Source: a virus. Taken from it: 20,321 nucleotides of DNA. Under the pieces are notes generated by a model. That model was not told the DNA's origin, searched no databases, and saw only the letters and a program-made list of their open reading frames with translations. The stretch lies in the IMG/VR virus record IMGVR_UViG_3300045738_001284, positions 1-20,321 of that record. One strand, given 5' to 3'. This document shows, piece by piece, positions 17,780 through 20,185 of this stretch; position 1 is the stretch's first letter, and the number at the start of each line of letters is the position of its first letter. A program made the translations under genes and the position numbers.

Positions 17780-17808
17780 TTGACAAACGCTAGCGACTAT
17801 GATATAAT
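17780..17808 (+). promoter_or_regulatory. Consensus sigma-70 promoter, cassette 1
   Basis: TTGACA (17780-17785), 17 bp, TATAAT (17803-17808), a perfect match in both boxes. The ATG at 17815 is 6 nt after the -10 box, at the expected transcription start. Confidence 0.95.
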
Positions 17809-17814
17809 ACAGGC

Positions 17815-18102
17815 ATGTTAAACGAAACGAAAAACGAAAGAGAAAACGAAATGACATTTCAATTTGATGATTTCGACACGCAAATTCAAAGCGAGGAACT
17901 GGTATCCGACGAAGAGCTTTATGCTGCTGAGGAATACATGGGCACTCTAGAGGATGAGCTTGATGCTGTAGAGGATGAGCTTGACATTCTTGATGCCGAA
18001 ACTCGATTGGCTGATGCTGAATGGGATGCTCATTGGGAAGCAATGGATATGGATCTGCTCGATGCGAGTGGTGAGCTTCACGATTACGATGAAGATGAAT
18101 AA
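17815..18102 (+). CDS. Extremely acidic small protein (possible DNA mimic)
   Basis: The protein has 95 residues from the first ATG, or 83 from the second in-frame ATG at 17851 (MTFQFDDFDT). The 83-residue form has 33 Asp/Glu, one Arg and no Lys by count. Residues about 50-75 (LEDELDAVEDELDILDAETR) form a likely helix with repeated acidic heptads. Such charge and length are seen in phage DNA mimics that block restriction enzymes or nucleoid proteins, for example Ocr of T7; there is no sequence match to claim here, only the charge analogy. The first ATG is at the predicted transcription start, so translation may be leaderless; otherwise the A-rich leader serves the second ATG. Confidence 0.75.
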   Translation: MLNETKNERENEMTFQFDDFDTQIQSEELVSDEELYAAEEYMGTLEDELDAVEDELDILDAETRLADAEWDAHWEAMDMDLLDASGELHDYDEDE

Positions 18103-18122
18103 ATAAATCGCCGTAGGGGGGA

Positions 18123-18202
18123 TTGACAAAATCCGGCTGCGGGCCGCCGCCGTCGTCCTAACTCCTTATACAACAACGACTTATAGATACTTGATTATTT
18201 TG
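18123..18202 (+). repeat. 80-bp GC-rich hairpin element, copy 1
   Basis: It begins TTGACAAAATCCGG and runs through a strong GC hairpin (CGGC, GCGG, one-base loop, CCGC, GCCG), then TAACTCCTT, CAACGACTTA, and CTTGATTATTTTG. It matches 19460-19538 along its length. No TATAAT follows the TTGACA at 17 bp. Both copies lie after the stop of a cassette gene, so a structured 3' RNA or terminator-like role is likely. Confidence 0.7.
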
Positions 18203-18256: not shown

Positions 18257-18319
18257 TAGTGGAGGGGAGAAGGGGATAAAAAAACATGCAGAAAACTTCA
18301 AAAAAAACCCGCTTTGCTC

Positions 18320-18348
18320 TTGACAAAACGTCCAACTTAGTATATAAT
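18320..18348 (+). promoter_or_regulatory. Consensus sigma-70 promoter, cassette 2a
   Basis: TTGACA (18320-18325), 17 bp, TATAAT (18343-18348), then 6 nt and ATG at 18355. This is the first member of a duplicated promoter pair. Confidence 0.9.
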
Positions 18349-18427
18349 ACAGGCATGAGAAACAAAGAGAACAAAATGATGACTGAAAAAAACATGCAAA
18401 AAACTTCACAAAATAGCCGTACTGCTA

Positions 18428-18456
18428 TTGACAAATCAGAGAAGATCGTTTATAAT
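18428..18456 (+). promoter_or_regulatory. Consensus sigma-70 promoter, cassette 2b
   Basis: TTGACA (18428-18433), 17 bp, TATAAT (18451-18456), then 6 nt and ATG at 18463. About 110 bp of upstream sequence resembles that of cassette 2a (AAAAAACATGCA, AAAACTTCA, CCG, TGCT). Confidence 0.9.
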
Positions 18457-18462
18457 ACAAGC

Positions 18463-18807
18463 ATGAAAAACAATAATACTTTAACGAAAGAAAAGAAAAT
18501 GACTTTTACAAAATACAATACAAACGTAAATCACCTTACAACCCATGAAATGGTTGCTAGTAAAATAGAAAAAGGTTTGACTAATGAGCTTCGCATCATT
18601 TGTGAAATCGGTAATATCTTACGAGACATGGGTAAAAACCATACTCAAATTAACTTCCTTATGAACAACGAGGATTTTCTCACTAACGTTCTAAGTTGTT
18701 ACGATAGCGATGGTGGAGATAACACTCCCCCGTTTGATAATTTTCATCCTCTTAATGCTACTAAGATTAGCCCACGTTGGGCCGATGGTAGTAAGAGAAC
18801 CATTTAG
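18463..18807 (+). CDS. Unknown early-type protein behind a duplicated promoter
   Basis: The protein has 114 residues from the ATG at 18463, or 102 from the leader ATG at 18499 (MTFTKYNTNV). The same frame is also open from ATGs at 18286 and 18355, so transcripts from the upstream promoters could make longer forms that read through the second promoter; these are probably by-products. The body has a helical middle (HEMVASKIEKGLTNELRIIC, EIGNILRDMGKNHTQINFLM) and an acidic, Pro-rich tail. The leader codes TLTKEKKMTF, shared with two other cassettes, but the body is unrelated to theirs. No family recognised. It carries no strong ribosome binding site. Confidence 0.65.
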   Translation: MKNNNTLTKEKKMTFTKYNTNVNHLTTHEMVASKIEKGLTNELRIICEIGNILRDMGKNHTQINFLMNNEDFLTNVLSCYDSDGGDNTPPFDNFHPLNATKISPRWADGSKRTI

Positions 18808-18864: not shown

Positions 18865-19004
18865 CTTGAAGTTGAACAAGTAAACAACGACACTTGAAGT
18901 TGAACAAGTAAACAACGACACTTGAAGTTGAACAAGTAAACAACGACACTTGAAGTTGAACAAGTAAACAACGACACTTGAAGCCTAACAAGTAAACAAT
19001 GGCG
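18865..19004 (+). repeat. 28-bp tandem repeat, four perfect units plus one degenerate
   Basis: Units begin at 18865, 18893, 18921, 18949 (identical) and 18977 (diverged). Each starts CTTGAAGTTGAACAAG and ends AAACAACGACA. The unit contains inverted CTTG/CAAG and GTTG/CAAC pairs. There are no spacers. It lies 24 bp before a strong promoter. It could be an iteron-type origin or a multi-site operator. Confidence 0.95.
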
Positions 19005-19027: not shown

Positions 19028-19056
19028 TTGACAAACCGAACAACTTGGTATATAAT
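19028..19056 (+). promoter_or_regulatory. Consensus sigma-70 promoter, cassette 3
   Basis: TTGACA (19028-19033), 17 bp, TATAAT (19051-19056), then 6 nt and ATG at 19063. Confidence 0.95.
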
Positions 19057-19062
19057 ACAGAC

Positions 19063-19428
19063 ATGTTAAACAAGACTACTTCAACGAAAGAAAAGAAAAT
19101 GACTTTTAAGATTAACGATAGTGATAAGACAAGAGTAAGTAACCTCAACATGATGCTTCATGACAATGGCGTAGACATCTGGATTAAGATGGATATGAAT
19201 GACATGAGCAGATGTGAATGGAGATTCCTTGATAGTCCTTCACCTAACACTTTTGGTACGATGGATCAGCCACTAGTACATGGTGGAATAGGTGCATTGA
19301 TCAATGACATGAGAGAGGCTTGCTTCGCTCATGGTATCATGAAGCGTCCTGCTCATATCAGTAACCGTAACCATGTTCGGCTTGCCATCAATGGTAATCC
19401 TGTTTGGACTACCTCAAACGGTGGCTAG
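19063..19428 (+). CDS. Unknown early-type protein, paralogue A
   Basis: The protein has 121 residues from ATG 19063 (MLNKTTSTKEKKMTFK), or 109 from the leader ATG 19099. It is a tandem paralogue of the gene at 19817: shared blocks include LHDNG/LHENG, NDMSRCEWRF/NDMSDCQWRF, FGTMDQPL/FGTMAQPL, GGIGALINDM/GGVGALLNDL, IMKRP, RNHVRL/RNHMRL and a terminal WTTSNGG/WTTANGG. Roughly half the body is identical by eye. The conserved WRF, Cys and His positions suggest a compact folded domain, not a disordered inhibitor. No known family was recognised. It sits between the tandem repeats and the second hairpin element. Confidence 0.7.
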   Translation: MLNKTTSTKEKKMTFKINDSDKTRVSNLNMMLHDNGVDIWIKMDMNDMSRCEWRFLDSPSPNTFGTMDQPLVHGGIGALINDMREACFAHGIMKRPAHISNRNHVRLAINGNPVWTTSNGG

Positions 19429-19459
19429 GGCGGCTACCCTACCCCCCCCGCTAGAGGGG

Positions 19460-19538
19460 TTGACAAAACCGGCGGCGGCCCGCCCCGGTCGACGTAACTC
19501 CTTTGATACCAACGACTTAAAATTTCTTGTTTATTTTG
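19460..19538 (+). repeat. 80-bp GC-rich hairpin element, copy 2
   Basis: This copy starts TTGACAAAACCGGCGG and has the GGCGG-C-CCGCC hairpin, TAACTCCTT, CCAACGACTTA and CTTGTTTATTTTG, as in 18123-18202. It is preceded by another hairpin, CCCC-GCTAGA-GGGG, and a run of eight C. Confidence 0.7.
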
Positions 19539-19559: not shown

Positions 19560-19588
19560 TTGACAAGCTAAAGTTTATGTGCTATAAT
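19560..19588 (+). promoter_or_regulatory. Consensus sigma-70 promoter with a leader
   Basis: TTGACA (19560-19565), 17 bp, TATAAT (19583-19588). The ATG is 32 nt later, so this transcript has a 5' leader of about 26 nt. The GATAATATATAAT just downstream resembles sequence near the weak promoter at 18228. Confidence 0.9.
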
Positions 19589-19620: not shown

Positions 19621-19764
19621 ATGTTAAGCACTAGAACAGATAGAATGACACTCAAGCAGCTCCTGCTTCATCTCGATTACAGTAGGGATTGCCCCGATAG
19701 GATTCATCCTGATCGTTGGCGTGCTATGCTCACTTGGGCAAAAGAAAGAGGATATATTTCCTAA
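19621..19764 (+). CDS. 47-residue unknown protein
   Basis: A short frame starting MLSTRTDRMTLKQLLLHLDY and ending WAKERGYIS. It begins 32 nt after a perfect promoter. It shares the ML...MT double-Met start of the neighbouring cassettes (second ATG at 19645). It is basic, with Trp and Arg in the C-terminal half. The GAGAG 12-16 nt upstream is a weak ribosome binding site. No family recognised. Confidence 0.6.
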   Translation: MLSTRTDRMTLKQLLLHLDYSRDCPDRIHPDRWRAMLTWAKERGYIS

Positions 19765-19781: not shown

Positions 19782-19810
19782 TTGACAAATTGGTCAAGAT
19801 AGTATATAAT
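19782..19810 (+). promoter_or_regulatory. Consensus sigma-70 promoter, cassette 4
   Basis: TTGACA (19782-19787), 17 bp, TATAAT (19805-19810), then 6 nt and ATG at 19817. Confidence 0.95.
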
Positions 19811-19816
19811 ACAACC

Positions 19817-20185
19817 ATGTTAAACAAGATTACTACAACGAAAGAAAAGAAAATGACTTTTAAGATTCAAGAAAATGATTACAATAGGGCTTTAGATCTT
19901 TATACTAGACTCCATGAGAATGGTATCGAAGTATGGATGAAGCTAAACACCAACGATATGAGCGATTGCCAATGGCGATTCATTGACCCTCATTCGCCGC
20001 ATATCTTTGGTACGATGGCTCAACCATTACACAATGGTGGAGTAGGTGCTTTGCTCAATGACTTGCTTCAGGCATGTTACAACCATAGTATCATGAAGCG
20101 TCCCGTTCGCATGGGTACACGTAATCACATGCGTCTATCATGCGATGCTAATGGTAAGCAGTGGACTACTGCTAATGGTGGTTGA
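19817..20185 (+). CDS. Unknown early-type protein, paralogue B
   Basis: The protein has 122 residues from ATG 19817 (MLNKITTTKEKKMTFK), or 110 from the leader ATG 19853. It is homologous to paralogue A over its full length, with the strongest conservation at CQWRFID, FGTMAQPL, GGVGALLNDL, SIMKRP and the C-terminal TANGG. The frame continues upstream to 19721, but that lies before the promoter and is rejected. The gene and its leader and promoter were probably duplicated together, since the promoter-leader DNA is the most alike part. A further short gene starts 1 nt after its stop. Confidence 0.7.
   Translation: MLNKITTTKEKKMTFKIQENDYNRALDLYTRLHENGIEVWMKLNTNDMSDCQWRFIDPHSPHIFGTMAQPLHNGGVGALLNDLLQACYNHSIMKRPVRMGTRNHMRLSCDANGKQWTTANGG

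Follow-up and report, generated by a model that had tools for sequence, protein, structure and literature searches.

The element that recurs ahead of small genes in this viral DNA is probably, judged by its promoter geometry and by its behavior in relatives, a leaderless start codon fused to the promoter initiator and held in frame with an internal start. We put at roughly 70% the probability that the two starts work in tandem, with in-frame leaderless and internal initiation giving two isoforms and more dependable expression. The window, as the DNA analyzed is called here, is a viral fragment of 20,321 bases, and the genome-wide question was put to relatives instead. The source group consists of uncultured, largely marine phages in which many genes have the +1 ATG design. 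Leftward structural genes (terminase, capsid) lie in the window and rightward small genes begin at about 17.6 kb; the terminase, portal and capsid gave only distant matches to Bacillus, Staphylococcus or Microcystis phages.

Five promoter-leader cassettes in the window

Five plus-strand cassettes share the architecture TTGACA-N17-TATAAT-N6-ATG, in its fuller form TTGACA-N17-TATAAT-ACANNC-ATG, with first ATGs at 17815, 18355, 18463, 19063 and 19817. In 5/5 cassettes this ATG stands 7 nt after a perfect TATAAT, which is the transcription start expected for sigma-70. The first-pass annotation had noted, correctly, that the ATGs at 17815, 18463, 19063 and 19817 each have a further ATG in frame at a distance of exactly 36 nt; it had overlooked the fifth cassette at 18355, where the second in-frame ATG lies at +21, the placement of the first ATG at the expected +1, and a sixth promoter with AAT in that position.

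In cassette 1, a sigma-70-type promoter (TTGACA, 17-nt spacer, TATAAT; 17780–17808) precedes a leader of 12 codons that runs from the +1 ATG to the in-frame ATG at 17851 (17815–17853), and the ORF (17815–18102) codes for 95 aa from the +1 ATG and 83 aa from the second. Homologues of this gene have a 39-nt in-frame leader (L019:1843) or an out-of-frame ATA leader (L036:9651). The fifth cassette consists of a promoter at 18320–18348 and a 7-codon leader ending in the in-frame ATG at 18376 (18355–18378). The promoter of cassette 2 (18428–18456) repeats the 18320 promoter unit as a 108-nt tandem duplication and is followed by a 12-codon leader with its in-frame ATG at 18499 (18463–18501) and an ORF of 114 aa (18463–18807). 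This tandem duplication of promoter and leader occupies 18278–18473, and since 108 nt (36 codons) is divisible by 3 and no stop codon falls in between, the 18355 transcript is open in frame across the promoter of cassette 2 and on into the 18463 gene.

Cassette 3 has its promoter at 19028–19056, a 12-codon leader with the in-frame ATG at 19099 (19063–19101) and an ORF of 121 aa (19063–19428); the leader is unstructured and its Shine-Dalgarno (SD) sequence is weak (−0.9 kcal/mol). The match of a homologous protein in locus L355 begins at residue 15, past the leader. Cassette 4 comprises a promoter at 19782–19810, a 12-codon leader with the in-frame ATG at 19853 (19817–19855) and an ORF of 122 aa (19817–20185) that is a paralogue of the cassette 3 gene. 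The sixth promoter (19560–19588, −10 at 19583) has a +1 AAT that is out of frame with its gene start at 19621, and is an internal contrast to the five +1-ATG cassettes of the window.

The leader described earlier as common to four cassettes is identical over AACGAAAGAAAAGAAAATGACTTTT in cassettes 2–4 (0 expected in shuffles), and cassette 1 carries a looser variant of it. As also reported, the only two base differences between the leaders of cassettes 3 and 4 (ACT/ATT and TCA/ACA) are both nonsynonymous, although two alone prove little. Cassettes 3 and 4 have paralogous bodies (57% identity), and those of cassettes 1 and 2 are unrelated beyond the leader, which yields the three unrelated bodies previously counted. 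The label "early" given to these genes was a supposition. The proposed portability of the leader held up, many unrelated genes of relatives having it and leaders moving from one gene to another; the leaders of the window gene at 18463 and of L071:231, for example, are nearly the same ahead of unrelated bodies.

The window contains several other repeats. At 18865–18999 a 28-nt unit, CTTGAAGTTGAACAAGTAAACAACGACA, is repeated in tandem 4.8 times with 97% likeness between copies, and every copy contains an ACTTG/CAAGT dyad. In L038 (near 6312, minus strand) this repeat comes immediately after a +1-ATG promoter, so it may be transcribed there as a repeat RNA. Similar G+C-rich elements of the pattern TTGACAAAA.CCGGC..GC.GGCCGCC..AACTCCTT stand 3′ of cassettes 1 and 3 (about 18120–18165 and 19459–19510) in A+T-rich surroundings. 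Tandem repeats of 84 nt at 42–209 and 504–659, inside long open frames of the first kilobases of the fragment, probably belong to a repetitive structural protein.

Promoter initiator in relatives

A promoter-unbiased set was assembled from 80 loci fetched by terminase similarity alone. Among the promoters of these relatives, AT stood 7 nt after the −10 element in 70/90, compared with 0–12 at the seven other offsets tabulated (3–10), and the base before AT was a pyrimidine in all 68 of the 68 promoters analyzed. Y−1R+1 is the usual initiator. The third initiator base among the 68 was A in 46, G in 15, C in 5 and T in 2 cases. These promoters so appear to carry a Y-A(+1)-T initiator, whose third base, when it is G, would make the transcript begin with AUG; a 5′-terminal AUG on the mRNAs is thus predicted from exact promoter geometry. 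Relatives have two near-identical promoter forms, +1 ATG and +1 ATA, and the AUG and AUA leaders are otherwise alike, both being A-rich and of the form ACAAACAAC..AAAGGAAA.

When cultured phages were searched at the DNA level for the cassette, only weak matches were returned. In one of these, Synechococcus phage S-CAM3 (L553, KU686197.1), a small annotated gene overlapping thyX begins at 283, exactly on the +1 ATG of a TATAATACACAC-ATG promoter of this kind, making S-CAM3 a possible cultured test case.

Reading frame is locked to +1 only in ATG leaders

The two promoter forms differed sharply in the frame of the downstream gene. In the window family, the gene start was in frame and open in 24/25 ATG leaders, the sole exception having an overlapping TGA, and in frame in 5/22 ATA leaders. 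Matched scans of virus contigs with two patterns differing only in the ATG/ATA base gave 33/35 in frame for ATG versus 14/39 for ATA (Fisher p=1e-7), and 33 versus 9 in frame and open (p=2e-10), the in-frame figures for ATA being at chance level. Across the 26 gene families having both forms, the counts were 70/80 and 29/83, respectively (CMH p=9e-10). Relatedness was ruled out as the cause of this lock, the difference persisting at p=3e-9 with one representative per family and class. In the promoter-unbiased set, 11/11 ATG leaders were in frame, with 4 further genes purely leaderless, and 8/39 ATA leaders were in frame. Near-identical copies of single genes occur in both forms: the leader of the MNDTYDWDLDAGEDF gene opens with ATG in L025 (21 nt) and with ATA in L095 (22 nt), and that of the MAFNYEKYYATLFRK gene with ATG in L037 (24 nt) and with ATA in L063 (22 nt).

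A bias from internal methionines of long leaderless ORFs was answered by defining the gene start independently: among strict SD starts (dG<=-6), 47/56 were in frame for ATG versus 51/143 for ATA, and starts fixed by an ATA homologue were in frame in 52/58 cases. The leader lengths of +1-ATG genes vary in steps of three, and slippage of (AAC)n as the source of these steps was rejected, as ATA leaders have the same repeats yet remain at chance. The identical promoter pattern at 111 loci of GTDB genomes, which were mostly Clostridia and not hosts of these phages, gave 11/31 in frame, the chance level, so the frame lock comes from neither method nor promoter, and a general property of any promoter with a +1 ATG was ruled out.

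Outside the window family, not every +1-ATG gene keeps the frame, the notable exceptions forming a group whose leaders span 43–53 nt. This AGVS..DG..KVRFAND family (L023, L029, L060, L062, L070, L085 and L146), a main source of out-of-frame +1 ATGs in phages with related promoters, often carries ATGGACAGC..TTCATA..ACACACAGA in its leader and perhaps has a different leader-based control.

Evidence for both starts and against a conserved peptide

Since the frame follows the expected transcription start solely in transcripts that open with AUG, ribosomes evidently initiate at this predicted 5′-terminal AUG. The +1 ATG of 81 viral promoters opens at least 40 codons without an SD-led start, versus 21 in which it does not, and members of a HAD-like family are leaderless in L313/L315 but dual in L019/L317. 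The second start, by its sequence context, is also real: ATA homologues begin there, the L355 match starts after the leader, and an SD of <=-4 kcal/mol precedes it in 59% of +1-ATG genes, compared with 92% of +1-ATA genes and 20% of control internal methionines. In the window cassettes, the second ATG is preceded by a weak SD (−0.9 to −2.9 kcal/mol), so that one start, the first, may dominate there.

The extensions between the two starts, 6 to 18 codons long, are all Asn/Lys/Thr-rich and open. The synonymous share of nucleotide changes was 16% in ATG leaders, no different from the 16% counted when the untranslatable ATA leaders are assigned a virtual frame, indicating that the peptide is not selected; conservation of the peptide was rejected, there being no excess of synonymous changes over the ATA control. 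By this measure it is the frame and the openness of the leader that are selected, in support of the earlier preference for a portable RNA or translation element over a conserved peptide. Copies in relatives displayed neither synonymous-only variation nor absence of the leader. No leader in the window had an RNA structure or hairpin more stable than shuffles (z-scores 0.6 to 1.45), the leader had no Rfam match, and no tRNA was found. The leader is rich in ACA/CAA, motifs that have been reported to raise translation (PMC3879156; PMC9031893).

Proposed mechanism and alternatives

The observations fit a scheme in which a G after the promoter initiator Y-A(+1)-T creates an ATG, and the mRNA would begin with 5′-AUG. 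Ribosomes would bind and initiate at this terminal AUG in the manner of leaderless translation, and the second AUG, in frame 6 to 18 codons on and usually preceded by an SD or A-rich site (weakly so in the window), would serve as the ordinary start of the protein. Two initiation routes on one message would then produce isoforms differing by a short Asn/Lys/Thr-rich tail, the leader acting as a reusable transcription-plus-translation unit. The most likely benefit would be that small phage genes are expressed more strongly or more reliably, in whatever state the host initiation machinery is. The +1 position, the frame lock, the ATG/ATA toggling and the lack of peptide constraint are statistics of the sequences; where transcription really begins, how much each start is used relative to the other and what the phage gains are inferred. 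A more specific, switch-proof design, in which infection alters initiation factors or ribosomes, translation shifts from the SD-led internal start to the 5′-AUG and the phages depend on leaderless initiation, seems to us rather doubtful.

The leading rival to tandem dual initiation, possible though we consider it improbable, is avoidance of clashes only: +1 AUGs would arise from an initiator of AT plus any base, ribosomes would indeed start on them, out-of-frame cases would therefore be harmful and purged, and the first AUG would have no positive role. It would account for the frame lock and the missing peptide constraint, as well as for the stop that often lies before or overlaps the second ATG in the few out-of-frame cases. 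However, a single change to ATA removes the AUG, and yet in-frame +1 ATGs exceed the neutral level (in-frame open leaders were 11 ATG to 6 ATA where 20% ATG would be expected, p=7e-5); in addition, the +1 ATG is the sole start of many genes in the same phages, and the SD is relaxed where a +1 ATG is present. The opposite simplification, that the first ATG is the only start and the second an ordinary internal methionine, draws on the weak SDs of the window cassettes and on the numerous purely leaderless genes of related phages. This reading is quite unlikely given that homologues with ATA leaders start at the second ATG (52/58 aligned starts in frame), that the L355 match sets in after the leader and that SDs are enriched before the second ATG over internal-methionine controls.

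We assign still less weight to the 5′-AUG as a landing pad or standby site that captures 70S or 30S ribosomes and passes them to the second AUG, with little translation from the first. Such a role has been proposed for E. coli ptrB, where downstream expression needs the 5′-uAUG but not the peptide it encodes, but standby alone does not require an in-frame, stop-free arrangement. Hardly credible is a functional extension peptide acting as a signal, degron or interaction motif: the uniform Asn/Lys/Thr-rich composition and openness of the extensions would suit it, whereas their synonymous share equals that of the ATA virtual-frame control, their length ranges from 6 to 18 codons and homologues with ATA leaders lack them.

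If the reading frame is tied to the transcription start only with AUG as the first triplet, leaderless initiation would be routine in these phages and their hosts, many gene starts in these phages may be mis-annotated, and a compact dual-start promoter unit would exist that is directly testable.

Comparison with known systems

The lambda S holin is a phage dual-start gene in which two nearby in-frame starts give two isoforms. The cassettes resemble it in having two nearby in-frame starts, and differ in that the first start would lie at the 5′ end of the mRNA, the extension is unconserved, unrelated genes share the design and there is no start-controlling hairpin. The mobile promoter cassettes of T4-type phages (PeSL) reuse a promoter and leader with a stem-loop at many small early genes; the reuse of promoter plus leader is alike, whereas the cassette leaders are unstructured.

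Leaderless mRNAs (lambda cI and others; PMC9031893) have a +1 start codon, as predicted for the cassettes and strongly indicated by the statistics for many genes of related phages, and share with the cassettes a CA-rich downstream sequence, which has been reported to raise both leaderless and leadered translation (PMC9031893); the phage cassettes differ by adding a second in-frame start after a short leader. The start-associated sequences of cluster K mycobacteriophages, a 13-bp SD-containing motif beside the start codon (PMC3203893), are similar as a start-proximal repeat element common to unrelated phage genes, but are not accompanied by a further in-frame start at the site where transcription begins, and their motif GGGATAGGAGCCC next to the start was absent from the window leaders when these were read directly. 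As a recurrent phage design, the in-frame form was not found in the literature searched, which leaves out most subscription papers.

The closest known case is that of E. coli mRNAs with a 5′-uAUG, which combine a 5′-end AUG and an internal SD-led start on one message, as is predicted for the phage transcripts. Beck, Fleming and Janssen (2016, PMC4965119) showed that 70S ribosomes bind 5′-terminal AUGs on SD-containing mRNAs in E. coli and that translation starts there; these authors chose out-of-frame cases and deliberately left out in-frame ones, so the uORFs tested were separate or out of frame, whereas the phage +1 AUG is mostly in frame and open. In the phages, a 5′-uORF as a separate cistron is not the rule, the large majority being in frame and open, while an SD-led downstream start is found in relatives (59% versus 20% in the control) and is weak in the window cassettes. 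Unlike the E. coli 5′-uAUG mRNAs, the phage form extends over dozens of gene families and uses a standard promoter. Whether a 5′-terminal AUG on a leadered mRNA is of importance beyond reporter assays is a question to which evolution would here supply an answer from sequence alone.
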